A stretch of 29,508 nucleotides of DNA, taken from IMG/VR virus record IMGVR_UViG_3300045051_001397, positions 1 to 29,508 of that record. One strand, given 5' to 3'. Shown piece after piece: positions 9,595 to 25,396 of this stretch. The stretch is from a virus. Made by a program: the position numbers and the translations under genes. Numbering within the stretch: the stretch's first letter is position 1; every line of letters begins with the position of its first letter. Under the pieces are notes generated by a model, which was given only the letters and a program-made list of their open reading frames with translations, made no database searches and was not told where the DNA came from.

Positions 9595-9804
9595 ATGAAC
9601 CGAGAGCGACAGTTAGAGGCGACGATCGCCAACCTGAAGCGATCGATCGATTACCTCGATAAGCACCGTATCCCGCCGCTTTTCAAGGATTATATGCGCA
9701 CTCTCCGGCGGGAGAACGAGGAACTACGGGATAAGGTCGCGGCGCGCGATCGCGAGATACGGCAGTTAAACGAGCGGATAAGGAGGCTAGAAGGTGGAAA
9801 CTAA
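9595..9804 (+). CDS. Short coiled-coil protein
   Basis: The 69-residue product is almost wholly helical and charged; heptad patterns run from about residue 2 to 66 (LEATIANLKRSIDYLDKH; LRRENEELRDKVAARDREIRQLNERIRRLE). It probably dimerises. It begins 1 nt after the dioxygenase stop and overlaps the start of the large ParB-domain gene by 11 nt, so it is likely made with that protein and may be its partner. No family is recognised. Confidence 0.65.
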   Translation: MNRERQLEATIANLKRSIDYLDKHRIPPLFKDYMRTLRRENEELRDKVAARDREIRQLNERIRRLEGGN

Positions 9805-12433
9805 CTGTAAACACGAGTGGAGCGAGTACGTCGGCAAAGAAGGCCTGATCGCCGAATGCAAGAAATGTCGGGCGCGGCGGGAGGTGACGGACGAGAAAAG
9901 CCTCACCGAACACCTGATCGTCCTGTTCTCGGTGCGGGAGGAGTACCGCGAGAAGGCGGGCGGCTCGACCTCCGAGTCGGCGCGAAAAGGGTTCGAGAAG
10001 GCGGTAGCCGATAAGGACGAGCAGATCGCCGCCGCCCTGAATCGTCTACCCTATAAGCTCTACAGTACCGAGGAGCTTCTCGGGTTCGTCGGGTTGGAAT
10101 CGCTTCCCGAGCTATGGCTCCCGGAGATTGCGTCGGGGGGCGATTGGTTATCCGGCGGGCTTTTCCCGACGCGGGTGGCGTGGATGGGGGTACGGATAGC
10201 GAGGTGGGCCGTCTGGGAGCCGAAGGAACTGCCGATCGACCTACTCCAACCCCATCCCCTTAATACCCTGATCTACTCGGTGAGCGACATCTCCGCGCTC
10301 GCGGGGCAGATCAAGGATTCGGGGTGGATCAAGCCGATCGTGATCGATCGCCGTCGCCGCGTTGTCTCGGGAAACCGTCGCCTCGCGGCCGGCAAAGTTT
10401 TGGCACTGGCATCCCTGTCCGTCGAGGAGATTATTTCCGAGGACGAGACGGGGACGATCCGCCGCCTCATTCTAGAGAACGCCTCGCGGATTAAAACCGT
10501 GGAGCAGAGAGTGAGGGAGGCGCGGATACTCGAAGATATCCCCGGTTGGCTGGGTGAGGTGAGGGAGAGCCGACAGCGAACGATCGTCGAGAAAGCGATC
10601 GAGTACCTTGAGGCGCGGGGCGAGACCGATCGGGCGGGACAGTTGGTGAGCCTCGCCACGCCGGACGCTTGGAAATTGCTCAAATCGTGGAATCTCGAAG
10701 ATCTAAAAATCGAGCGCGCGATCCGGGGGCGGGATCTGATCGCCGAGAGCGTCGGTCTGGGTTCCGGGGAGAATCTCCGCAAGGCGGCGAAGGTGGTGGA
10801 GGCGATCGACTTCTTCGGGTCGATCGGGCGGCGGGCCGAGTCCGAGAGTTTGCGAAAGGAACTCGATAAATCGGTGGACGGGGCGAAAAGGGCGCTCCGG
10901 GAGATCGAGAAAGCCGAGAAGGAGTCGATCTTCTACCGCTACGTCGGCCCCGAGATACGCGGGGTCGCTCATCTCCTCCAGCCCGGCGATACCTGCTACC
11001 CGGCGGCGATCGAGTTGAACGACAGGGATAAACAGGCGGTCAAACACGATTACGCGGACGAGGTTTTCTTCGTTCTCTGGCGCGACCTGAAGATTATCGG
11101 ACTGGAGGATAAGAAACGGAAAAAGCCCGAGAAGTCGACGACTATCGCGGCGGCCGACGCGGTGGAGAGTGTTCTGTCGAAACCCGAAACCCCGTCCGAG
11201 GGCGGTATCCGGAAAGTTCCTTTCGAGGTGGGGCGGGAGGTGGTTCGTCGCGACGTTCCCGATCGCCTTTTCACCGTTCGGGCGATCGACGGGCCGCTCC
11301 TACGGGTGGAGGCGACGGGCGAGGATTATCGCGAGTCGAGCCACTGGGAGAACTACACGCGACCGCCGACGCTGGCGATCGGGGCGAGGGTTCGTTTCGT
11401 CTTACGGGAAAAAACGACCGGCGAGGTGACGCGGATTCAATGGGCGGAAAAACAGGATTGTTGGCTCTATCACGTCCTTCGCGACGACGGGAAAAACGAT
11501 TCCGCTTTCGAGGGGACGCTGGAGGAATTACTCGATCGCGAGTACGCGGTCGGCGATTGGGTGAGCGACGGCGGCTCGATCGGGGTGGTGGAATCGATCG
11601 ATCCCTTCGTCGTCGCGTGGATGGGTATCGGCGACGTTCCCGCGCCCAAGTGCGAGACGGTGGAATTCGGGAGCGAAGCGCCGCCGGAGGCGGCTCGCTC
11701 TCTTCTCCGTCCCGCCGCCTTCGATCCCCTCTGCCCGCCCAAGCGGGTGATCGGTTCCTTCAAGATCGACGATCGGGTGTCGCCGGATTGGGATCGGGAG
11801 CGAACCAAGCGCGGGCGGATCGTCTCGCGCGACGGTGATTACGTCGATATCGCTTGGGATAACGGCGAGACCTCGCAACTGCGACCGGAGCAACTCGCGC
11901 TCGTGGAGTACGAGGGTTTCTCGTTGGGCGATCGGGCGCGGGTTAACGGCGGCCCGATCGCCCCAGAGATCGGGCAGATCGTCGCGCTCTACCGCCGGGT
12001 GTCCGACGTGAAGTTAGAGGACGGGCGCAAGTGCCGCGTTCCCTATAGTTGGATTCAGGCTCTCCCCCCGCCGCTTCTCGCGCTTCAGTCCGTACACGAA
12101 GCGGTGAGCGAGTACCTCACCGAACAGCAATACCCCGAGGGGGCGGCGACGACGGTGGTGCGATTCGCCCCCCTCGACGCGCCGGCCGCCCTGAAGCATA
12201 TCAAGGCGGTAGTGAAAATCCTCGATACGCCGATGAACGAGGAATTGAAAACCTCGATCGTCGCGGCGTTTCAAGCTTATCTCGACGGGGACAAAACCCC
12301 CGCGCCGGAGGTGTCCCTAGCCGATATGGCGACCGAGGAGGAGTTACTTCACGCGGTACGATCGCTCTCTCCCGCGGGACTGGAACGGGCGATCGTCGCG
12401 CTCTGGAAACGATACAAGGAGGTGGAGTTTTGA
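9794..12433 (+). CDS. Very large ParB-domain protein with N-terminal zinc finger and C-terminal SH3-like repeats
   Basis: The 879-residue product is a mosaic. Residues 5-25 hold CKH...CKKC, a likely zinc finger. Residues about 146-250 form a ParB/Srx-fold N-terminal domain (LLQPHPLN...LAGQIKDSGWIKPIVIDR...VSGNRRLAAG), followed by a helical part like the ParB HTH region. From about 480 on there are repeated small beta domains of SH3/KOW type (VGDWVSDGGSIGVVESID; IDDRVSPDW...GRIVSRDGDYVDIAWDNGE; LGDRARVNGG...GQIVALYR), then a helical tail. ParB-fold domains act in DNA partition, as CTP switches, as nucleases, or in DNA modification. Such a long mosaic suggests a polyvalent phage protein; its reaction cannot be fixed. 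GTG start 9794 has AGGAGGCTAGAAGG upstream. Confidence 0.75.
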   Translation: METNCKHEWSEYVGKEGLIAECKKCRARREVTDEKSLTEHLIVLFSVREEYREKAGGSTSESARKGFEKAVADKDEQIAAALNRLPYKLYSTEELLGFVGLESLPELWLPEIASGGDWLSGGLFPTRVAWMGVRIARWAVWEPKELPIDLLQPHPLNTLIYSVSDISALAGQIKDSGWIKPIVIDRRRRVVSGNRRLAAGKVLALASLSVEEIISEDETGTIRRLILENASRIKTVEQRVREARILEDIPGWLGEVRESRQRTIVEKAIEYLEARGETDRAGQLVSLATPDAWKLLKSWNLEDLKIERAIRGRDLIAESVGLGSGENLRKAAKVVEAIDFFGSIGRRAESESLRKELDKSVDGAKRALREIEKAEKESIFYRYVGPEIRGVAHLLQPGDTCYPAAIELNDRDKQAVKHDYADEVFFVLWRDLKIIGLEDKKRKKPEKSTTIAAADAVESVLSKPETPSEGGIRKVPFEVGREVVRRDVPDRLFTVRAIDGPLLRVEATGEDYRESSHWENYTRPPTLAIGARVRFVLREKTTGEVTRIQWAEKQDCWLYHVLRDDGKNDSAFEGTLEELLDREYAVGDWVSDGGSIGVVESIDPFVVAWMGIGDVPAPKCETVEFGSEAPPEAARSLLRPAAFDPLCPPKRVIGSFKIDDRVSPDWDRERTKRGRIVSRDGDYVDIAWDNGETSQLRPEQLALVEYEGFSLGDRARVNGGPIAPEIGQIVALYRRVSDVKLEDGRKCRVPYSWIQALPPPLLALQSVHEAVSEYLTEQQYPEGAATTVVRFAPLDAPAALKHIKAVVKILDTPMNEELKTSIVAAFQAYLDGDKTPAPEVSLADMATEEELLHAVRSLSPAGLERAIVALWKRYKEVEF
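10388..10407. repeat. Degenerate copy of the dispersed palindrome inside the ParB-domain gene
   Basis: GCCGGCAAAGTTTTGGCACT matches 15 of 20 consensus bases. It lies in conserved ParB coding sequence (AAGKVLAL), so it may be chance. Confidence 0.3.
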
Positions 12434-13911: not shown

Positions 13912-13951
13912 TTTCCCCGATCGTGGAGACAGTAAGGGGAGGATCGGGAAA
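13912..13951 (+). promoter_or_regulatory. Leader hairpin and box of the small terminase gene
   Basis: TTTCCCCGATC (13912-13922) can pair with GATCGGGAAA (13942-13951) with one bulged C. The ribosome site AAGGGGAGG (13934-13942) lies mainly in the loop. The order palindrome, CGAT-GTG box, hairpin, start codon is shared with the large terminase and radical-SAM genes. Confidence 0.55.
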
Positions 13952-14475
13952 TGCCGCGGCGCAAGAAAGTGGACGAACTGCCGGAAGAGATCAGGAGTGA
14001 ACTCAATCGCCTGCTGATCGAGCGGGCGTTCGGGGATTTCCGGGGACTGGAGGGGTGGCTGGAGGAGCGGGGGTACTCGATCGGGAAAAGCTCGATCCAC
14101 CGCTACTCGCGCGATTTTCAAGCGCAGATGGAAGATCTCAGGGTCGCGACCGAACAGGCGCGGGCGATCGCCGAGGTGTGCGGCGACGACGAGAACTCGC
14201 TGGGTGACGCGCTCTCGCGACTGGCCCAACAGAAATTGATGGACGCGTTGCGAGATATCGATCCCGCGGGCGTGGAAGAATTATCGCTCGATCGCCTCGT
14301 GAACGCGATCGCGAACCTGAACAAGAGCGCCAACGCGACGAAGAAGCACTCCAGCGACGTTCGCAAGAAAATCAAACAGGTGAGCGAGGAAGTTGCCGAA
14401 ACGGCGCGTTCTAGCGGCCTATCCGAGACGGCGGCCGAGGAGATCCGGCGCAAGATCTTGGGGGTGGCGGAATGA
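13951..14475 (+). CDS. Terminase small subunit, DUF3486/Mu gp27-like
   Basis: The 174-residue product matches the DUF3486 pattern: PRRKKVDELPEEIRSELNRLLIE at the start (in pieces), then a substrate-recognition HTH (GLEGWLEERGYSIGKSSIHRYSRDF), which is strongly typical, followed by a long helical region with ALSRLAQQKLMDAL and a coiled C-terminus. It binds phage DNA at the packaging start site and activates the large subunit; in Mu-like phages this is gp27. The stop overlaps the next start (ATGA). The upstream palindrome suggests this is the first gene of a late transcription unit. Confidence 0.88.
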   Translation: MPRRKKVDELPEEIRSELNRLLIERAFGDFRGLEGWLEERGYSIGKSSIHRYSRDFQAQMEDLRVATEQARAIAEVCGDDENSLGDALSRLAQQKLMDALRDIDPAGVEELSLDRLVNAIANLNKSANATKKHSSDVRKKIKQVSEEVAETARSSGLSETAAEEIRRKILGVAE

Positions 14476-14915: not shown

Positions 14916-15395
14916 ATGATTACATCTTACAAGCCCAAGATCGCCTATCCTTTCACGTACTGGTATCGGAATAATTCGGGAAATATCGTCGAGGCTTCGA
15001 GTCTGAGCGAGGTTCCCGAGGACATCGAACTATATTGCAATACCTACGATATCGGCAAGTATTTCCAGCGCTTGGGGGCGAACAATGTTAATCCCCACAC
15101 CTATCGCCGCGAGGGACATCTATTCATGCTGGAGATTTTACCTCTGGCGATCGAGAAATACGGCAGAGTTTTTCCGAGGCTTTATCGGGGCGTTCGATCG
15201 GATCGCCCGGATGGCGAGTACAAATTATTGTTCGGAAGCGAGGATATCGAGGTCGCTAAATTTTACGGGAAAACGATTAAAGAATATTTAAATGTTCGAG
15301 GGCTGGAGTTTCACTCGGTTCTGCGATCTGTAAAATCCGATGATTACTCGGATGGCTACGGGGAAATGGATCGCGAGGTAATTTTTTTGCCATGA
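14916..15395 (+). CDS. Possible ADP-ribosyltransferase-fold protein (accessory gene)
   Basis: The 159-residue product has an order of motifs like the R-S-E class of ADP-ribosyltransferases: RLYRGVRSD (R91), then LLFGSEDIEVAKFYG (105-118; a GSED in place of STS, followed by the usual vA..F helix), and EMDREVIFLP at the C-terminus (E150/E154). Phage enzymes of this fold, such as those of T4, modify host RNA polymerase and other proteins; others are toxins. The central STS motif is incomplete, so activity is uncertain. The gene is AT-richer than its surroundings, has its own promoter, and overlaps the following unknown gene by 4 nt, as in two-gene cargo or toxin/antidote pairs. Confidence 0.45.
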   Translation: MITSYKPKIAYPFTYWYRNNSGNIVEASSLSEVPEDIELYCNTYDIGKYFQRLGANNVNPHTYRREGHLFMLEILPLAIEKYGRVFPRLYRGVRSDRPDGEYKLLFGSEDIEVAKFYGKTIKEYLNVRGLEFHSVLRSVKSDDYSDGYGEMDREVIFLP

Positions 15396-16246: not shown

Positions 16247-16283
16247 CTTTTCCCCCGATAGTGAAAACGGGTGAGGGGGAAAG
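16247..16283 (+). promoter_or_regulatory. Leader hairpin that covers the ribosome site of the large terminase
   Basis: CTTTTCCCCC (16247-16256) can pair with GGGGGAAAG (16275-16283), with one bulged T. The right arm is the ribosome-binding site, so the structure could hold back translation. The equivalent structure with different bases occurs before the radical-SAM gene. Confidence 0.55.
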
Positions 16284-16285
16284 AG

Positions 16286-17713
16286 ATGGACGCGGTATTA
16301 CTGCCTTATCAGAAAAAATGGGTGGCCGATAAGTCCCCGGTCAAGATCTGCGAGAAGAGTCGGCGGATCGGTCTGACGTGGGCCGAGGCGGCCGATGCGG
16401 CGCTGACCGCGGGTTCCGAGCGGGGGATGGACGTTTATTATCTCGGTTACTCGGAAGATATCGCCCGCGAGTTCGTCCGCGACGTGATCGACTGGACGGC
16501 GAATTTCAAGCTCGTCGCGGACGAACTCCAAGAAATTTATATCGAAGACGGGAATAAACCGATCCGATCGTTCGCGGTGCAGTACGCGAGCGGTTTCCGC
16601 GTCGTCGCGCTCTCCTCTCGCCCTACCAACCTTCGCGGCCGTCAGGGGCGCGTGATTCTCGACGAGGCGGCGTTCCACGGCGATCTACCGGGTTTAATTA
16701 AAGCGGCGATGGCGTTCCTGATGTGGGGCGGGCAGGTGCGGATCGTCTCCACCCACAACGGGGTCGAAAATCATTTTTACGAGTTGGTGGAGGATTGCCG
16801 CAAAGGAAAAAAGCCCTACAGTCTGCACCGCATCACGCTGGATGACGCGCTCGCGGACGGACTCTACAAACGGATCTGTTTCAAAACCGGACAGAAATAC
16901 TCCAAGAAAGCCGAACTCGCGTGGCGGCAGGAGTTGATCGACCAGTACGGCGAGGGCGCGGACGAGGAATTATTCTGCATCCCCAACCAGTCCGGCGGTT
17001 GCTATCTGCCGCGCCTGTTGATCGAGCGGAACATGGATGGCACTATCCCGGTTCTGCGCTTCGCGTGTAAGGACGGGTTCGCGACCGACCCCGATCGGGA
17101 GGGAAGAACGCGAGACTGGATTTCGGAGAATTTGAACCCGGTACTAGAAACCGTTAACCCGCGCTGGAAAAGCTCCTACGGGATGGACTTCGGGCGATCT
17201 GGAGACTTGAGCTATTTGCTCGTACTTCAGGAGGGGCCGGATCTGGTGCGGCGATCGATCGCGGCGATCGAATTGAGAAATTGCCCTTTCGAGCAACAGA
17301 AGCAGATTCTTTTCCACATCGGCGATCGCCTGCCGCGGTTAGTCGGGGGCGCTCACGACGCGCGGGGGAACGGTCAGTATCTCGCCGAGGTGGCGATGCA
17401 GAGATACGGCAAATATCGGATTCTAGAGGTGATGCCCACCGCGAACTGGTATCTGGAGGCTTTCCCGAAATACAAGGCGGCGCACGAGGATCGGCAGATT
17501 ATTCTCCCGAAATGCTCGGACTTGCTCGACGATCACCGACTGGTGGTGATGCAGGGCGGAATACCGCGGATTCCCGATAAACGGACGAAGGGAAGCGACG
17601 GGGGGCAACGTCACGGGGACGGCGCGGTCGCCGGGGCGCTCGCGTGGCAAGCCTCGCTCAATTGGGAGGCGGGTTTACCGGCGATGGGGTCGAAGTCGTT
17701 TAGCGCGTGGTGA
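16286..17713 (+). CDS. Terminase large subunit, Mu gp28-like
   Basis: The 475-residue product is the packaging motor and headful nuclease. The ATPase part has an adapted Walker A at KSRRIGLT (24-31), a Walker B GRVILDEAAF (121-130; D126, E127), and coupling motif VSTHN near 154-158. The nuclease is RNase-H-like: D301 in GMDFGRSGDLS, a middle part AHDARGNGQYLAE, and a C-terminal acid in HGDGAVAGALAW. Length and motif spellings fit the Mu gp28/terminase_6 group. ATG 16286 is chosen over in-frame GTG 16271 because GGGGGAAAG lies just upstream. The small terminase is 1.8 kb upstream, separated by the nuclease and accessory genes. Confidence 0.92.
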   Translation: MDAVLLPYQKKWVADKSPVKICEKSRRIGLTWAEAADAALTAGSERGMDVYYLGYSEDIAREFVRDVIDWTANFKLVADELQEIYIEDGNKPIRSFAVQYASGFRVVALSSRPTNLRGRQGRVILDEAAFHGDLPGLIKAAMAFLMWGGQVRIVSTHNGVENHFYELVEDCRKGKKPYSLHRITLDDALADGLYKRICFKTGQKYSKKAELAWRQELIDQYGEGADEELFCIPNQSGGCYLPRLLIERNMDGTIPVLRFACKDGFATDPDREGRTRDWISENLNPVLETVNPRWKSSYGMDFGRSGDLSYLLVLQEGPDLVRRSIAAIELRNCPFEQQKQILFHIGDRLPRLVGGAHDARGNGQYLAEVAMQRYGKYRILEVMPTANWYLEAFPKYKAAHEDRQIILPKCSDLLDDHRLVVMQGGIPRIPDKRTKGSDGGQRHGDGAVAGALAWQASLNWEAGLPAMGSKSFSAW

Positions 17714-17732
17714 TGGACAAAATTTCGCCCCT
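17713..17732. repeat. Dispersed palindrome, copy 5, upstream of the radical-SAM gene
   Basis: ATGGACAAAATTTCGCCCCT, the most degenerate of the leader copies. The centre 17722.5 is 64.5 nt before the ATG, and the box CGACGATG begins 31.5 nt after the centre, at the same offset as in the terminase leaders. Confidence 0.6.
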
Positions 17733-17786: not shown

Positions 17787-18989
17787 ATGGCCGACACTAT
17801 CAAACCTTACTACGGCGAGTTTTTCGTGAGTTGTATCCCGCTAGAGATGGGCGGGACGTATTGCAGTCACAACTGTAGCTATTGTTTTAGCAACCTCGGC
17901 AATAAAAAGCGAAAATTCGACCCCGCGGGAACGGTCAGATTGATTAAAAACCGACACGATCGCCTGGCTTTAGAGGCTCAACTGCTATCGCTGGGCTACC
18001 CGGTGCTGATCAGCAATAAAGTCGATCCCTTCAGTCGATCGAACTACCGCGAGATGCTCCCGATCATGAAGCTCCTGACCGACGAGGGCATCGGGATCGC
18101 CATCCAGACCCGCGGTGGCACGGGAATCGACGACGCGTTAAAATTCCTTCCCCCTAGCGTCTGGTACGTCTCGATCACTCACGATAGCGACGAGACGCGA
18201 AAGGTTATCGAGCGGCAGGCTCCGTCGATCGAGAGCCGGTTCGAGCTTGTAGACAAGCTAACAAGGTTCGGTCATCGTGTGGTGGTGGGCGCGAACCCCT
18301 TACATCCCGACTGGATTAAAGACCCGGAAACCTTCTTCGATCGCCTCGCCGAACTGGGAGTCGAGGGGGTGTGGTTGGAATACCTGCATCTCTCCTACAA
18401 GCAACGCGACGCGATGGGACCGCGCGAACGGGCGGCGATCGGCGAGGAATTAATTAAAAAAGCGATGAAGCGGAATCTTCCAGCCGATTGGGAGGATTTC
18501 GGGGAGCGGTGCGAGGGGGCGATCGCCCGCGCGGGGATGGAAATTTACCGGGGCGGTCAGGCGAGGCGATCGGACTTCTGGAAGCCTTTTCGCGAGACCT
18601 ACCCGAGAACTTTCCCCAATATGCAGGACTGGATCAACCACTGTCACGATAACGATATCGAGGAGTTCGATATTAACGACTGGAGGTTGTTTTTCGCGGA
18701 CAAACTACCGAAAGAGATCGATTCGAGCCAGATGTATCACTACATCGAGTTCGGGGCGCAGAGGAAGCAATCGGGGGTGACGATCCCGAAGGCGCGGAAT
18801 TACGCCGATCTCCTGCCGGTGTGCTGGAGTAACGAGAAATTCCCCCGCGCCAACCCGATCGCCTGCGAGGCGTTCCTGTATCTGGCGGAAAAAGGGAACG
18901 ACGGCGAACCGAAGCCGATTCTTAAAGACGGTCTACCGGCCTTCGGGTTTATCCCGGGGGGGACGGACTATAAATACCTGTTGGTGTAG
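17787..18989 (+). CDS. Radical-SAM enzyme of the photolyase-like/SplB type
   Basis: The 400-residue product carries the radical-SAM cluster motif C26-x3-C30-x2-C33 (YCSHNCSYCF), then NKVDPFSRSNYREMLPIMKLL and a TIM-barrel run (IAIQTRGG; WYVSITHDSD; VVVGANPLHPDW; VWLEYLHLS) like COG1533/spore-photoproduct-lyase relatives. Such enzymes use S-adenosylmethionine to make a radical; SplB repairs DNA lesions, and others modify nucleotides or proteins. The C-terminal third (250-400) is not recognised and may bind the substrate. Its place between the large terminase and a tandem ParB-like gene, ahead of the portal, is odd for a metabolic enzyme and suggests action on phage DNA or on a virion protein. 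Confidence 0.85.
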   Translation: MADTIKPYYGEFFVSCIPLEMGGTYCSHNCSYCFSNLGNKKRKFDPAGTVRLIKNRHDRLALEAQLLSLGYPVLISNKVDPFSRSNYREMLPIMKLLTDEGIGIAIQTRGGTGIDDALKFLPPSVWYVSITHDSDETRKVIERQAPSIESRFELVDKLTRFGHRVVVGANPLHPDWIKDPETFFDRLAELGVEGVWLEYLHLSYKQRDAMGPRERAAIGEELIKKAMKRNLPADWEDFGERCEGAIARAGMEIYRGGQARRSDFWKPFRETYPRTFPNMQDWINHCHDNDIEEFDINDWRLFFADKLPKEIDSSQMYHYIEFGAQRKQSGVTIPKARNYADLLPVCWSNEKFPRANPIACEAFLYLAEKGNDGEPKPILKDGLPAFGFIPGGTDYKYLLV

Positions 18990-19007
18990 CGGCAAAATTT
19001 AGCCGGG
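18988..19007. repeat. Dispersed palindrome, copy 6, between the radical-SAM and ParB-like genes
   Basis: AGCGGCAAAATTTAGCCGGG keeps the GGCAAAATTT core with a shortened right arm. It overlaps the upstream stop codon area and ends just before the ribosome site GGGAGGGAG; the centre is 19.5 nt before the next start codon. Confidence 0.6.
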
Positions 19008-19016
19008 GAGGGAGAG

Positions 19017-19763
19017 ATGGCGAGTCAGGGGTGGAAGAAGAACAAGAAGGGCTATATGGAGAAAGACGGCGCGACCCGGCGACAGATGATGGCGGAGAAG
19101 CGGGCGGCGGGCGGCGAGTACGGGTTGAGCGACACCCTTAAAGGAGAGTCGCCGGGGGCGATCGATCCGAAATGGGGTACGAGCAACGTCGAGAGAATGG
19201 GAGATCGGGTCGCTTTCGAGAAATACGACATCCCGACAATAGAGGGGGCGCGGGGGAAAGTTACCCCGGAGATCGAGTCGCTGGCGAGGGATATCGCCGA
19301 CGGAAAAGCCGATATCCTCAATCCCGTGGTCGTGGAAAAGGTCGGTTTCGAGAAATACCGCCTGATCTCCGGCGAGAGGGAATTCCTCGCCTCCAAACGA
19401 GCTAAAGAATTGAACCCGGAGATCGAGACGGTGAACGGCTATTTCGTTCGCGATCCGAAAGCGGCGCGAACCCAACTCAAACTATTCGCGGACGTGAAGA
19501 TCCCCAACAACGCGACCGGGGAGGCCGCGAAAATCGACATCTCGATGATCTCGACGAAGGTGAAAGCCGATACGAAGCCGCTCGAAAAACAGGCGCGTAG
19601 TATTCTCGGAACCGGGGACAACCTCAAGCCGGTTATTCTGCGAAAAGTGGGCTTCGAGAAGTACGAGGTGGTCGCCGGACATCAGGTTTACCACGCCGCG
19701 GTTCGGGCCAAGAGCAAAGATCGGAAATTTGAAACGATGAACGCGATCGTTCTCGATAATTAA
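19017..19763 (+). CDS. Protein with two tandem ParB/Srx-like domains
   Basis: The 248-residue product has a basic N-terminus (1-30) and two repeats of one domain. The first (about 66-145) has LARDIADGKADILNPVVVEKVGFEKYRLISGEREFLASKRAKE in pieces; the second (about 172-248) has LKPVILRKVGFEKYEVVAGHQVYHAAVRAK. The strand-turn VGFEKY-x-[LV]-[IV]-[SA]-G with a following helix is the ParB/sulfiredoxin fold; the first copy keeps GERE, the second has GHQV. Each domain may bind a nucleotide or DNA. Paired ParB-like and redox enzyme genes are known (IbrA/IbrB), so a joint function with the upstream radical-SAM protein is likely. GGGAGGGAG precedes the ATG. Confidence 0.75.
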   Translation: MASQGWKKNKKGYMEKDGATRRQMMAEKRAAGGEYGLSDTLKGESPGAIDPKWGTSNVERMGDRVAFEKYDIPTIEGARGKVTPEIESLARDIADGKADILNPVVVEKVGFEKYRLISGEREFLASKRAKELNPEIETVNGYFVRDPKAARTQLKLFADVKIPNNATGEAAKIDISMISTKVKADTKPLEKQARSILGTGDNLKPVILRKVGFEKYEVVAGHQVYHAAVRAKSKDRKFETMNAIVLDN

Positions 19764-19786: not shown

Positions 19787-21289
19787 ATGCAGAAATACGA
19801 GTCCGCCCACCACGGCGATCTCCCCTACGAGTCCGCCAAAGAGAACTGGGATTATTACTCCGGCGATACCTTTCAATTCTGGACGGGGCCGAAACCCCCG
19901 GCGGATCACCCGGACGCGAGAACCGTGATGAGATCTCTGGAGGAGGTATTCCACTCCCACAACGTCATCGGGGAAGCGATCGATCACTACGTCGCGGCGC
20001 TCGTGGGACAACCGTTTAACTTTTACCTATCGGCCGATAAGCCGATGGAAACCCTAACCGACGCCCAGAAAAGAGCGATCGACGCGGAGGAAGAATTTTT
20101 ACAGAAGTGGTGGGACTACCAGAAAGAGCGGGCGATCGAGTCCGGGCGCGGCGACCCGATCGCCGGGGCGGTAACGCAACTGCTCGTGACCGGGCGCGGC
20201 TATCTCCGTCTCTATCGACCCGCTCGGGTGGCGAACGACCCGGAACCCTACCGCCGGATGATCCTGCACTGCCCGGCGATCGGGAGCGTGGCGACGGAAC
20301 GCGACGCGGACGGCTTCCTGTACGAGGCGCGCTACGATTACGACCCGCCCGAGGGAGGCTCGACGGGAGATCGGGCGAGCGAGACCTATACCCTACTGGA
20401 AAACGGAAAAACGAGAATTCAGGACAGCAACGAGCCGAGGGAGGTGGACTACGGCGGGAGACTGCCGATCTTCGAGATGCGCGGGAAAAGCGTTATTACC
20501 CCGTCGGCGAAACAGGGGCAGAACTCGATCAATAAAGTTCTGACGATTAAGGACGTGAACGTGGACGCGGGAGGATTCTTGAGCCGGGTGCTGATTAACG
20601 CGCAACTTCCGGGGGAGTTCGTCACCGATCCCAATCAGCCCAACGGGCGAAAGTTCGTCCCCTCCGATCGCCCGCTCACTTTCGGTCCGCGACAGGTGAC
20701 GTACGTACAGGGAATGCCCCTCGGCGACCCCGATAACCCGTCGAGCTACACCACCCCCTCGCTGATCACCGAACAGCCGATCGACGCGGGGGTATTCGGG
20801 GGTTCGCTGGCGATCGATTACGAGGCGTTCTGGTTGTCGATCGGGTTGGGACACCTACTGACCGCGGGGGACGGGTCGCTGTCGGGACGGAGCCGCGAGA
20901 CGATCAAGGGAGATTTCGAGGTGCGATTGCAGGGGTACGCGGGGATCGTCGAGTCGTCTTTAAAGGCGATTTTCCAGACGGTGCAGATCTTACTCGCCGA
21001 TCTCTACAATCGCCCGTCGCTGAAGGAATACTCCTGCGTCGTCGAACTTAACCTGACCACCGGAAAAGCTCTGCCGGAGGAACGAAATCAGGCGATCGTC
21101 GAGTATCAATCCAAACTGCGATCGAGAACGGGGGCGATGATGGCGATCGGCATCTCCGACCCGGACGCGGAGATAGAACTGATGCAACGCGAGACGGAAA
21201 CCGAGATCGCCGGCATCGCCAAATTGGAGGCGGAGAAAACGCGGGCCGGACTTCCCTCGCTAATCGGAGCCGATAACGCCCCGGCGTGA
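19787..21289 (+). CDS. Phage portal protein
   Basis: The 500-residue product is predicted to form the dodecameric ring through which DNA enters and leaves the head. The evidence is its length, position after terminase and before the MuF protein, and portal-like features: an N-terminal helix-rich part (EEVFHSHNVIGEAIDHYVAALVGQPFNFYLS), a central stretch with GSVATERDADGFLYEARYDY (wing), then SAKQGQNSINKVLTIKDVNVDAGGF (stem/clip region, in pieces), LTAGDGSLSGRSRETIKGDF and a helical, acidic C-terminus. It differs from Mu gp29 (DUF935) in wording and may belong to another portal family. The ATG is 23 nt after the ParB-like stop. Confidence 0.82.
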   Translation: MQKYESAHHGDLPYESAKENWDYYSGDTFQFWTGPKPPADHPDARTVMRSLEEVFHSHNVIGEAIDHYVAALVGQPFNFYLSADKPMETLTDAQKRAIDAEEEFLQKWWDYQKERAIESGRGDPIAGAVTQLLVTGRGYLRLYRPARVANDPEPYRRMILHCPAIGSVATERDADGFLYEARYDYDPPEGGSTGDRASETYTLLENGKTRIQDSNEPREVDYGGRLPIFEMRGKSVITPSAKQGQNSINKVLTIKDVNVDAGGFLSRVLINAQLPGEFVTDPNQPNGRKFVPSDRPLTFGPRQVTYVQGMPLGDPDNPSSYTTPSLITEQPIDAGVFGGSLAIDYEAFWLSIGLGHLLTAGDGSLSGRSRETIKGDFEVRLQGYAGIVESSLKAIFQTVQILLADLYNRPSLKEYSCVVELNLTTGKALPEERNQAIVEYQSKLRSRTGAMMAIGISDPDAEIELMQRETETEIAGIAKLEAEKTRAGLPSLIGADNAPA

Positions 21290-21963: not shown

Positions 21964-22200
21964 ATGGACTCGCTGAAGAATATTCTCTCCCCGGTTTACG
22001 ACATCGGCGACAGGGTTAAACTGCCGGGTTACGGATCGGATTTCCGCGTCACCGGCGGTTTATACGATTCGTTTCTCGGCTGGCATTACTATTTGAAATC
22101 GACCGGCCACGATTCCGAGGGACTCGGGCGGGTTCTACCCGAAGGCTTCCTTTTAGAAAATGACCTCACCCGAACATCAATCGCTAGTGGAGCGGTTTAA
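21964..22200 (+). CDS. Small SH3/KOW-like protein
   Basis: The 78-residue product has a beta-rich, SH3/KOW-like pattern (YDIGDRVKLPGYGSDFRVTGG...GWHYYLKSTGHDSEGLGRVLPEGFLLEND). The GDRVKL start of the first strand matches the repeated domains at the C-terminus of the large ParB-domain protein (GDWVSDG, DDRVSPD, GDRARVN). It overlaps the MuF start by 41 nt. ATG 21964 is chosen since the frame before it is terminator sequence. The last residues (TRTSIASGAV) are probably an extension read through the overlap. Confidence 0.6.
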   Translation: MDSLKNILSPVYDIGDRVKLPGYGSDFRVTGGLYDSFLGWHYYLKSTGHDSEGLGRVLPEGFLLENDLTRTSIASGAV

Positions 22201-23449
22201 CGCCGTTCTCGACGGTTCCGAATCGCGGATAGCCGATCGTATCCGCCGCGCCCTCGCGAGAGCCTATGCCGAACTAGAGGACGAATTACGGCGCAAGTAC
22301 CCGAACTATCAGAGCAACGGGTCGCTGGTGGCTTACCAGCGAAAGTTACTGCTGTTAAACGAGCTTAAAGACCTATTAAACGTCGCCGGGGGGGATTTCA
22401 GCCGCGATTTCGAGGAACTGCTAAGAATCGCCGACGCGACGGGGATAGAACTGGGCGATCGCCTCCTGCAACTATCCGGGGAGGATTTCGTTCGGAGTAC
22501 GGCGACGATCCCGATCGAGGCGCTGAAATACGCGGCCGAGGAACAGACGCGCTATCTCGCCAAGTACGGCGACGAGTTCGCGGGTCGCGCGTCGGGGATT
22601 ATCGAGCAGGGATTGATTCAGGGTTGGGGCGTGGCGAAAGTGGCGGGGGAACTGCGGAAATCGCTGGAAGTGACGAAAACGCGGGCCGAGATTATCGCCC
22701 GCACCGCGTCGCTATCGGCCTCCAACGCGGCGACGGAGAAGGCTTTTCGCGATAACGGGGTGGAGTGGGTGCAGTGGATGGCGACCGCGGATTCTAGGGT
22801 CTGTTTTCCCGCGGGGACGAGGGTACGGGTTCCGGGCGGGGAGAGGGCGATCGAGGAGATAAAAGGCGGTGACGAGGTGCTGACGCTAGGGGGGTATAAA
22901 ACCGTCTACTCGGTTTCTAAGCGGGAGTACGAGGGAATATTGGTGCGACTGAAGGCGGGCGGCCGCTGGGTGGAATGCACGGCGGATCATCAGCTTTTCA
23001 CCCAAAGAGGATGGTCGATCGCCTGGGAGATCTTGCGAACCGATTTTCTCCGCGGCGCCGGGGAACCGGGATGGAGCGAGGTACAGCGATCGGAGCGCGA
23101 CGAGACCGAGCCGATAACCGTCTACAATCTCTCGGTGTCGGGGTTGCCCCAATACTTCGCGAACGGCTTCCTCGCCCATAACTGTTCTTTCTGCGCGGCC
23201 CGGAACGGGAATATGTACGAGATCGGGGCTACCCGTCCGCCGATCCACTACCAGGATCGCTGTTTTATCGTCCCGGTGAAGCGGAAGTATTTCGACCTCG
23301 GACTCGTGCGCGAGGATTGGATTCGCTCTTTCCGGGCGGCGGGACTGGAGGAGTTGAAAAAAGCCGATCGGGAACCGAATTACGGGGTGGCTCCCTTCGA
23401 GCGATCGGCGGGGCTGGAACGCGCGCCGGTTCCGGTGTGGCGACCGTAG
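22160..23449 (+). CDS. SPP1 gp7/MuF-type head morphogenesis protein interrupted by a mini-intein
   Basis: The 429-residue precursor has an N-terminal helical part (1-110), the MuF domain (TRYLAKYGDEFAGRASGIIEQG; GVAKVAGELRKSLEVTKTRAEIIARTAS; WMATADSRV) and, after the insert, CSFCAARNGNMYEIG...PPIHYQDRCFIVPV. Residues 215-341 are an intein (its own entry). Joining V214 to C342 gives a continuous conserved MuF Cys cluster, SRV-CSFCAARNG, and a mature length of 302. MuF proteins associate with the portal during head assembly and may enter the host with DNA. The start overlaps the preceding small gene. Confidence 0.88.
   Translation: MTSPEHQSLVERFNAVLDGSESRIADRIRRALARAYAELEDELRRKYPNYQSNGSLVAYQRKLLLLNELKDLLNVAGGDFSRDFEELLRIADATGIELGDRLLQLSGEDFVRSTATIPIEALKYAAEEQTRYLAKYGDEFAGRASGIIEQGLIQGWGVAKVAGELRKSLEVTKTRAEIIARTASLSASNAATEKAFRDNGVEWVQWMATADSRVCFPAGTRVRVPGGERAIEEIKGGDEVLTLGGYKTVYSVSKREYEGILVRLKAGGRWVECTADHQLFTQRGWSIAWEILRTDFLRGAGEPGWSEVQRSERDETEPITVYNLSVSGLPQYFANGFLAHNCSFCAARNGNMYEIGATRPPIHYQDRCFIVPVKRKYFDLGLVREDWIRSFRAAGLEELKKADREPNYGVAPFERSAGLERAPVPVWRP
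22802..23182 (+). other. Mini-intein (Hint domain) in the MuF gene
   Basis: These 381 nt code for 127 residues with complete splicing blocks: Cys1 in CFPAGTRVRVPGG (block A), the T-x-x-H of block B (ECTADHQLFTQRGW), and a terminal VYNLSVSGLPQYFANGFLAHN in parts (blocks F and G), ending in His-Asn before Cys+1. No LAGLIDADG or HNH endonuclease is present. With Cys1, TxxH, HN and Cys+1 all in place it should be able to splice, unlike many bacterial intein-like domains that have lost +1. Confidence 0.9.
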
Positions 23450-23467
23450 TGCCAAAATTTTGCCACG
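23448..23467. repeat. Dispersed 20-bp palindrome, copy 7, at the MuF/sigma boundary
   Basis: AGTGCCAAAATTTTGCCACG, overlapping the MuF stop. The centre 23457.5 is 20.5 nt before the start of the sigma-like gene, similar to the 19.5 nt at copy 6. Confidence 0.75.
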
Positions 23468-23477
23468 GGAGGCGGGG

Positions 23478-24164
23478 ATGGATTTCGAGAGTAATATCGG
23501 GCTGGTGCGCCACGTCCTGCACCGGACTTTCCCGACCTGGCTGAACACCGAGGAGGGGAAGGATCTCTTTCAGGAGGGGTGTATCGGACTCCTCAAGGCG
23601 ATCGATCGCTACGACGGACGGGTAAAGTTCTCCTCCTTCGCCGTCCCCTACATCCGCGGCGAGATCCTCCACTACCTCCGCGATAAACTGAAGCTCGTCC
23701 GGCATCGAACCGAAGAAGTCCGATTCGCCAGCCTCGATCGCCTACTGGAGATGTACGAGGCGGACGACGAGGGAATCCCGAACCGGGCGATCCTTCCGCT
23801 ATTCGCCGATCCGCGGACGCTGAACGATCCCTACGGGGCGATCGATCTGGAGATGGCGATCGAGTCGCTCGAACCCCGATCGCGGGAGATAGCCCTAGAT
23901 ATCGCCCGCGGCGCGACGGCGGCGGAGACGATCGCGCGGGAGGGGATCGCGGCGATCACCTACTATCGCCGTCTGAGAGCCTTGCGGGGAAGCCTACAGC
24001 GGGCGATAGAGAGAGAAAAAGAGACGGGCGCGTCGGACTGCCCGAAATGCGGCGGGCGATCGCGTCGGGCGAGGAAACTCTATCACTGCACCCGTTGCGG
24101 TTTCCACTTCGATCCGGCGCGGGTCTATCACCGCGAGCGGGGACGACCGAAGGGACACCGCTAG
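23478..24164 (+). CDS. Sigma-70-like factor with C-terminal zinc ribbon and AT-hook-like tail
   Basis: The 228-residue product begins like sigma region 2 (residues 3-75: DFESNIGLVRHVL; DLFQEGCIGLLKAIDRYD; FSSFAVPYIRGEILHYLRDK), close to the SigB/SigF/FliA branch. Residues 121-175 form a region 4-like HTH (IESLEPRSREIALDIARGATAAETIAREGIAAITYYRRLRAL in parts). The end adds a zinc ribbon with C188, C191, C204 and C207, then RGRPKG, an AT-hook-like core. The ATG has GGGAGGCGGGG upstream; an in-frame TTG at 23460 lies within the palindrome. In the head operon it could redirect host polymerase to late promoters. Region 3 is absent. Confidence 0.8.
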   Translation: MDFESNIGLVRHVLHRTFPTWLNTEEGKDLFQEGCIGLLKAIDRYDGRVKFSSFAVPYIRGEILHYLRDKLKLVRHRTEEVRFASLDRLLEMYEADDEGIPNRAILPLFADPRTLNDPYGAIDLEMAIESLEPRSREIALDIARGATAAETIAREGIAAITYYRRLRALRGSLQRAIEREKETGASDCPKCGGRSRRARKLYHCTRCGFHFDPARVYHRERGRPKGHR

Positions 24165-24232
24165 AGCGGAAAAATCGTCGCTCTCCCGCGCGCCCGTGGT
24201 ATTTAGTGGGATCGAAGGATTTTGGAGACCCC

Positions 24233-24511
24233 ATGAACAAACAGGAATTGGTGAGAGCCGTAGCCGAGAGCGTCGAGGGGGGAACCCGGAAAACCGCGGA
24301 GAAATACCTGAACGCGATTTTAGAGGTTATCTCGGACGAGTTAGCCGGCGGCGGCGACGTGATTTTAGTGGGTTTCGGGACGTTCGCGACGAAGCGCCGG
24401 GAAGAGCGATCGGGCAGGAACCCTAGAACCGGCGAGGCGATCGTCATTCCCGCGGCGACGGTTCCGGTTTTCACGCCGGGTAAGAAGTTGAAGGACGCGG
24501 TAGCCGATTAG
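24233..24511 (+). CDS. HU/IHF-family DNA-binding protein
   Basis: The 92-residue product is a full-length HU-type protein: MNKQELVRAVAE at the start, VILVGFGTFATKRREERSGRNPRTGEAIVIPA with the beta arm and a conserved arm-tip Pro, and FTPGKKLKDAV at the end. It binds and bends DNA. In transposable phages HU is needed for the transpososome, and it could also compact DNA or act at promoters. GGAG lies 9 nt before the ATG. It sits between the two sigma-like genes, probably in one transcript. Confidence 0.93.
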   Translation: MNKQELVRAVAESVEGGTRKTAEKYLNAILEVISDELAGGGDVILVGFGTFATKRREERSGRNPRTGEAIVIPAATVPVFTPGKKLKDAVAD

Positions 24512-24532: not shown

Positions 24533-25396
24533 GTGAAAACAACGGAACCCCCCGATTTCGAGTCGAACACGGGCTTAATTATTTTCGTAATTAACCGCTT
24601 CTTCAAATCCCTAGCGCGCCGACCGATCGAGGAAGATCTTTTTCAAGAGGGCGCTCTCGCTCTCTTGAAAGCGATCGCTCGTTACGATAGCGAGAAAGGC
24701 GAGTTTTCCACCTACGCGATACCCTGCATTCGGGGAAGAATGCTCACCTATTTAGGGAAGCTGCCTTCCGCGACCCGGCGATCGGGGAAAAAGTTCCGGT
24801 TCTACAGCCTCGATCGGTTCGAGGAGGCACTAGAAAATAGAGATTTTATCCCGAGCCGATTTATCGCCGCTTTTATCGACCCGAGATCGATCGAAGAAGG
24901 AGACGGGGAGGAAGAGCTAGAGGCGTTCCTGTCGGAACTGGACGAACCGCTCCGGGAGATCGCCCGCGACCGATTAGACGGGATTTCTAGGGGAAGAACG
25001 CTAGAGCGACTGAAGATAACGGAACACGAGTACGCGAGGCGGCACGAGGCGCTTAGACTGGAAGCGCGGAAAATATTCAAGCGGCGCTACGGAACCGAGA
25101 TCGGGAGAGATCCGACGATTATGGAAATAGAGATCCATTCCGACAGGGTGATCGAGAGAATTAAAAGCGCGTTGAAAACCGATTCCCGGTTTTTGCCTTT
25201 AAGCGATCGCGAGCGCGATGTTTGTTTTTATATGTGCTTGGACGAGACGAACGAGGAAATAGCGGCCCGACTGAATCTCGACGGGGCGACCGCGAGAAAT
25301 ATCGTTTGCCGCGTCCTGAGAAAAACTAATCTAGAGCGGCGATCGAGTATCCTTCCCGCGATTCTAGGATTGAGCGTTAAGGAGAGGGGCGGGTGA
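24533..25396 (+). CDS. Second sigma-70-like factor with C-terminal LuxR-type HTH
   Basis: The 287-residue product shares its start with the first sigma (DFESNTGLIIFVINRFF against DFESNIGLVRHVLHRTF). Sigma region 2 is at 11-80 (EEDLFQEGALALLKAIARYD; FSTYAIPCIRGRMLTYL). The middle (130-180) has a weak HTH, and residues 220-272 form a LuxR/GerE-like HTH (LPLSDRERDVCFYMCLDETNEEIAARLNLDGATARNIVCRVLRKTNL in parts) in the place of region 4. GTG start 24533 has GAGGAG upstream. Codon use is AT-richer than the first copy. The terminator at 25440 ends the unit. Likely role: a promoter-specificity factor for late or accessory genes. Confidence 0.75.
   Translation: MKTTEPPDFESNTGLIIFVINRFFKSLARRPIEEDLFQEGALALLKAIARYDSEKGEFSTYAIPCIRGRMLTYLGKLPSATRRSGKKFRFYSLDRFEEALENRDFIPSRFIAAFIDPRSIEEGDGEEELEAFLSELDEPLREIARDRLDGISRGRTLERLKITEHEYARRHEALRLEARKIFKRRYGTEIGRDPTIMEIEIHSDRVIERIKSALKTDSRFLPLSDRERDVCFYMCLDETNEEIAARLNLDGATARNIVCRVLRKTNLERRSSILPAILGLSVKERGG

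Follow-up and report, generated by a model that had tools for sequence, protein, structure and literature searches.

Genomic setting of the radical SAM gene

What does a radical SAM (rSAM) enzyme do among the packaging genes of a phage, and is the ParB-like protein encoded beside it its partner? The question was raised by a 29.5-kb virus record of a Mu-like phage, the window, which here means the whole stretch of 29,508 nucleotides that was analyzed. The Mu-like traits of the window are a Mu-type transposase, the Mor activator, a small terminase of the Gp27 family, a large terminase, and MuF. The sequence GCGATCGC was found in 21 copies, compared with 0.74 expected, and this excess points to a cyanobacterium as the probable host.

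The initial annotation had described a radical SAM gene with a C-x3-C-x2-C motif and a tandem ParB-like gene lying between the terminase and the portal genes, and this observation was confirmed. On the plus strand, the small terminase subunit (13951..14475; Mu Gp27 family, Pfam 2.8e-40) and the large terminase subunit (16271..17713; phrog_2, 6.9e-36) are followed by the gene for the 400-aa rSAM protein (17787..18989; Pfam Radical_SAM, 5.3e-10), the gene for a 248-aa ParB-like protein (19017..19763; Pfam ParB_N, 3e-11 over two stretches), and the gene at the portal position (19787..21289). The product of the latter had no match in the Pfam or PHROGs libraries and was called portal because of its position between rSAM/ParB and MuF and its conservation in related phages (60% identity).

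Three further features of this region were noted. A 159-aa ORF between the two terminase genes (14916-15395) resembled ADP-ribosyltransferases by eye (YRG...FGSED...REVIF) and had no Pfam or PHROGs match. MuF (22160-23449) is split by a mini-intein at about residues 215-342, where intein N- and C-terminal models matched, and the MuF of four close relatives (L002-L005) is uninterrupted at this point. Downstream of MuF, two sigma-70 region 2 proteins (23460-24164 and 24533-25396) flank an HU-like protein (24047-24511).

The late-type leader that had been noted before the rSAM gene proved to be real. The palindrome TGGCAAAATTTTGCCA occurs in eight copies in the window (592, 5467, 10390, 13879, 16217, 18990, 23450, and 28450; 0.08 expected), several of them shortly before late genes, including TerS, TerL, and the ParB gene, and it is a probable late-gene operator. 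The site before the ParB gene (18990..19005, plus strand) has three mismatches. A weaker copy at 17718 precedes the rSAM gene of the window, and a perfect core copy precedes the rSAM gene of L005. With such sites before both the rSAM and the packaging genes, the rSAM gene looks late-expressed together with the packaging genes.

Sequence and predicted structure of the rSAM protein

The cluster motif of the rSAM protein is C26-x3-C30-x2-C33. These three cysteines, which are expected to bind a [4Fe-4S] cluster, were invariant in 37 family members, and no other cysteine was invariant, the next best column holding cysteine in 26 of the 37. A SPASM-type auxiliary-cluster domain is absent, as no further conserved set of cysteines was found in these 37 members. 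The presence of only three invariant cysteines speaks against the chemistry of spore photoproduct lyase (SPL) and against SPASM maturases. Differences among the rSAM and terminase genes were 3-5 times more frequent at third than at second codon positions, and both genes are thus under selection at the protein level.

An AlphaFold model built from 17 sequences (pLDDT 90.2), which replaced a model from five near-identical sequences (pLDDT 49), consisted of a radical SAM barrel and a helical C-terminal part. The CxxxCxxC cluster motif and the partial TIM barrel place the protein in the Radical SAM superfamily. The nearest solved folds were those of pyruvate formate-lyase (PFL)-activating enzyme (Z 16.4), SPL (15.4), viperin (15.1), NifB, and SuiB. 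The best matches fell within about 2 Z units and included protein-modifying enzymes; as these scores are too close to one another, the fold assigns no single function.

The ParB-like gene of the window is not a core gene of its clade

The rSAM protein was 70-74% identical in four IMG/VR contigs (L002-L005), in all of which its gene lies between the terminase and portal genes. As L004 and L005 are near-identical in this region, they represent three distinct relatives. Identities within this clade were 77-80% for the terminase and 60% for the portal. In 45 further contigs with a large terminase 40-64% identical to that of the window, no such rSAM gene was found in the flanks examined. Of the three distinct relatives, one has a ParB neighbor beside the rSAM gene (L002, at 31% identity); in L003, L004, and L005 the rSAM gene leads directly into the portal gene. 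Since the ParB neighbor recurs in L002 alone, the rSAM gene is core to the clade and the ParB gene of the window is not. In L002, a 122-nt inverted repeat (9743-9864 and 11205-11326, 98% complementary) that encodes an N-terminal tag described below surrounds the rSAM gene; it is either a recent duplication or possibly a substrate for inversion.

The window ParB protein combines an N-terminal W-x-K tag (19017..19145, plus strand; MASQGWKKNKKGYM...AEKRA) with two ParB/Srx-like domains on the same strand. Domain 1 (aa 69-141; 19221..19439) carries ISGEREFLAS in place of GERRxxA, and domain 2 (aa 172-243; 19530..19745) carries VAGHQVYHAA. The two halves were 40% identical (E 3.5e-14). The nucleotide-binding GxRR-type motif is intact in neither repeat (GEREF and GHQVY), both of which lack the usual arginine pair. 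No matches to this protein were obtained by a DNA-pattern search or by tblastn in isolated phages, and its relatives were reached only via the rSAM gene. Its most plausible role is that of a tagged accessory protein.

Other proteins with such domains were encountered. ParB-like domain 2 weakly matched residues 1272-1400 of a 1717-aa 'Tail protein' (PDB 9k3a_B, E 0.00098), and virion proteins may thus also carry ParB-like domains. In a distant Mu-like phage (L055, 7848-9218), a further protein with tandem ParB-like domains has an N-terminus that by eye resembles a zinc-ribbon primase.

A family of phage rSAM genes paired with a different ParB gene

A profile built from the clade and from the rSAM proteins of YuA-type phages retrieved two groups from viral contigs, and a broader profile extended the set. 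Group I, which includes the window, comprised 52 loci, of which 39 were distinct at 90% identity; group II was YuA-like. The two groups were split in the tree with support of 100/99, and L150 came out as the neighbor of the window clade within group I (94/88). A genome scan that used the clade rSAM as the query gave no matches, and the broadened profile matched genomes of Drouetiella (a cyanobacterium), a Nitrospiraceae MAG, and Termititenax. In the Nitrospiraceae MAG, a second radical SAM ORF of 252 aa (L148, 6324-7079) lies just upstream of the ParB-rSAM pair. No close homologues of the window rSAM or of two tested group I rSAMs were found in 50,697 isolated-phage records.

Recurrence of the gene pair next to the terminase, which had been proposed as a check, was observed in many unrelated phages. 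A ParB-domain protein adjoins the rSAM in 31 of 33 distinct group I loci, a count that omits the window clade and three contigs starting at the rSAM gene; 28 were identified by gene picking and three (L081, L084, and L166) on closer search. The two frames overlap or lie no more than 25 nt apart in 19 of the 28 gene-picked loci. The exceptions were L078, a short contig with a close relative (L092) that does carry the ParB gene, and L155, in which a ParB gene is located elsewhere on the contig. In L095-L097, the ParB and rSAM genes have both decayed to fragments together. Of 34 group I contigs tested, 30 had the large terminase; where this gene and the rSAM gene were both placed by hand, they lay no more than about 6 kb apart.

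The partner-type ParB has a conserved C-terminal tail. This tail was considered by eye as a ribbon-helix-helix DNA-binding domain, an assignment that Pfam did not support. The partner-type ParB is not adjacent to the rSAM in the window clade. The pairing put forward in the initial annotation therefore stands for the family, in which rSAM and ParB genes recur side by side, but not for the particular ParB gene of the window, which differs from the conserved partner and does not occur beside the rSAM in L003 or L004/L005.

A possible DNA-modification module

Our preferred reading, to which we assign a probability of roughly 45%, is that rSAM and ParB form a late-expressed phage module that modifies phage DNA. 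In this two-gene module, rSAM would be the enzyme, expressed late alongside the terminase. The ParB-type protein would most likely bind phage DNA or activate the target with a nucleotide, and rSAM would take a hydrogen from a base, so that the DNA would be chemically modified shortly before its packaging. Such a modification would probably protect against host nucleases or steer packaging. In the window clade, the partner gene would have disappeared from its adjacent position by loss or relocation; a ParB domain related to it is found in an upstream 879-aa protein (9794..12433, plus strand; Pfam ParB_N, 0.008), which is kept in the clade and matched the partner-ParB profile of the other group I phages (E 1.5e-7). 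Tagged accessory proteins, the tandem ParB protein among them, occupy the slot beside the rSAM gene in its place.

Phage DNA is suggested as the most likely substrate by guilt by association, through the other partners of ParB proteins (methylase fusions, PAPS reductase, and Dpd). The analogy to IbrA/IbrB drawn in the initial annotation was apt: the same ParB family pairs with a PAPS reductase in Rhizobium phage L338C and is fused to DNA methylases. The IbrA/IbrB and phage ParB-PAPS reductase pairs likewise set a ParB/Srx-family protein beside a redox-type modifying enzyme, which is a PAPS reductase there and a radical SAM enzyme here. The ParB-DNA methyltransferase fusions (PHROG 498), which occur in many isolated phages, share the ParB domain family, whereas the group I ParB is encoded separately, has a conserved C-terminal tail of its own, and is paired with an rSAM. 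Within group I, L081 has a DNA methylase (5.3e-45) next to the ParB-rSAM pair, and L089 encodes a fusion of ParB and methylase. In 7-deazaguanine DNA modification by DpdA/DpdB, a ParB-like ATPase (DpdB) helps the base-modifying enzyme (PMC12839542); this system also has a ParB-like protein as the partner of a modifying enzyme, although the enzyme is of the TGT type and the system serves host defense.

Besides these associations, the ParB adjacency, the joint decay of the two genes, and the presence of the large terminase on most contigs argue for DNA modification, as do the nesting of the window clade within group I (94/88 with L150) and the placement of the nearest relatives in isolated phages, the YuA-type rSAMs, among the genes of a thymidine-hypermodification pathway. 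Several observations count against it. The window clade lacks the conserved ParB partner next to the rSAM gene, the nearest solved folds include protein-modifying enzymes, and RcMeacham has a ParB-like protein near the terminase without such an enzyme. Furthermore, a pure DNA-modification model leaves unexplained the tagged proteins that are tightly tied to the rSAM in several lineages.

ParB-family proteins with a modifying enzyme are recurrently DNA-modification machinery, and a radical SAM version, kept next to the packaging motor in diverse uncultivated phages, would extend this kind to new chemistry. No description of the group I rSAM family or of the ParB-rSAM pair was found in the literature searched, whose coverage excluded most subscription papers. 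Relative to that literature, the pair beside the terminase appears to be new in its enzyme, the general kind (ParB with a modifying enzyme) being known.

N-terminal tags and protein modification as an alternative

The first 43 residues of the window ParB protein are shared with otherwise unrelated proteins in related phages (E 1e-21). This clade tag was found on clade contigs only: beside the rSAM gene in L002 (twice), L003, and L004, in either orientation, and on another three late genes in G004. Different tags were found in other group I lineages: MAxxGGxWxK on three genes in L155, on two in L089, and on one each in L071/L072 and L151, L093 having a W-G-H variant; TEENLQCG in L092 and L078; and LDNSxGxQYYGGNDP in L150.

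A loose screen for shared N-termini was drowned in high-GC frame noise and was repeated with strict filters and controls. Sharing confined to the N-terminus was then detected in 5 of 39 group I records, always beside the rSAM gene, compared with 0 of 92 controls (p 0.002). On the whole contigs of L150, L155, L089, and L092, the tag occurred solely on genes beside the rSAM. The pattern MAxxGGHWxK was found on 7 of 2.9 million viral contigs, with the rSAM gene or its 3' end no more than about 2 kb away in every case; group I rSAM contigs account for six of them, and the remaining one starts with an rSAM 3' end like that of L072. The association between tag and rSAM is too specific to be disregarded.

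The tagged bodies comprised ADP-ribosyltransferase (three), Nudix, DnaJ, and ParB domains; HipA-like kinase bodies in L155 and L089 were recognized by eye only, with no Pfam match. This repertoire is typical of virion-injected phage effectors (PMC5512222, PMC9503650), neither of these papers mentioning radical SAM. The polyvalent and MuF-type effectors described there have the same bodies beside terminase or portal genes; the shared N-terminal tag and the tie to a radical SAM gene are the difference found here. Judging from their domains and gene positions, the tagged proteins may be virion-packaged effectors.

These findings are the basis of the strongest rival to DNA modification, which we consider possible but distinctly less probable. 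According to this explanation, rSAM is a protein maturase that would modify lineage-specific N-terminal tags (W-x-K or Gly-rich) for head loading or for activity after injection. Its clients, many with effector-type domains, would include the window's tandem ParB protein. The specificity of the tags for rSAM-adjacent genes, the restriction of the clade tag to clade contigs, and the effector-like bodies are all in its favor. However, many group I loci consist of ParB, rSAM, and terminase genes with no tagged neighbor, and the tag therefore cannot be the sole substrate of rSAM. The tag sequences vary by lineage, the seven contigs with the MAxxGGHWxK pattern represent only two or three lineages, three of the four tagged genes in G004 lie more than 20 kb from the rSAM gene, and the enzyme lacks auxiliary-cluster cysteines. 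A Lys-Trp crosslink as in streptide, which the W-x-K motif brings to mind, was left as speculation, as rSAM has no auxiliary clusters.

In its furthest-reaching form, which we consider about as probable, this reading would have rSAM modify N-terminal tags post-translationally on otherwise unrelated phage proteins as a cargo or activation label. We know of no phage protein-tagging system of this type. If the tag were the substrate, it would to our knowledge be the first radical SAM-dependent protein label in phages, and would open a way to study how effectors are selected for packaging.

Remaining alternatives

A less probable explanation is that the two genes of the window are unlinked accessory genes in an insertion hot spot between terminase and portal, their pairing being functionally meaningless. 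The presence of a window-type ParB neighbor in only one of three distinct relatives and the occurrence of tagged genes in the slot in either orientation agree with a hot spot. The ParB-rSAM adjacency across the deep lineages of group I, mostly with touching frames, and the retention of the rSAM gene in all four relatives, at a conservation close to that of the terminase, do not.

SPL-like repair of UV lesions, whether in packaged or in injected DNA, found no support and is very unlikely; UV repair had been offered in the initial annotation as an alternative to DNA or nucleotide modification. SPL is among the closest folds (PDB 4fhc and mutants, Z 15.1-15.4) and the probable host is photosynthetic, but the identity is 11% over the radical SAM barrel alone and no sequence match of rSAM to SPL was found. 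The SplB-like label thus holds at the superfamily level and not beyond it: there is no fourth invariant cysteine and hence no conserved counterpart of the catalytic Cys140 of SPL. Late co-expression with the terminase fits the repair of incoming DNA poorly, and the ParB partnership would be left unexplained.

Least probable of all is a role for rSAM in 5-hydroxymethyluracil-based thymidine hypermodification of the YuA type. Remote similarity links rSAM to YuA gp12 (24% identity, E 4e-4; MW2, E 2e-5), which sits among the genes of such a pathway. However, none of these genes, among them those for a kinase, a dUMP hydroxymethylase, and a PLP enzyme, was found in 56 group I records (for the most part flanks or fragments, and including the incomplete window), compared with 30-39 of 48 YuA-type records, and the tree separates the two groups. 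The flanks of YuA/MW2-type rSAMs that were examined also had no partner-type ParB. The YuA/MW2-type rSAMs (PHROG 9252, 'DNA repair photolyase') and group I, at about 24% identity, are both phage-encoded members of the superfamily and share the CxxxCxxC motif, a DPF motif, and the C-terminal CH/F/D positions.
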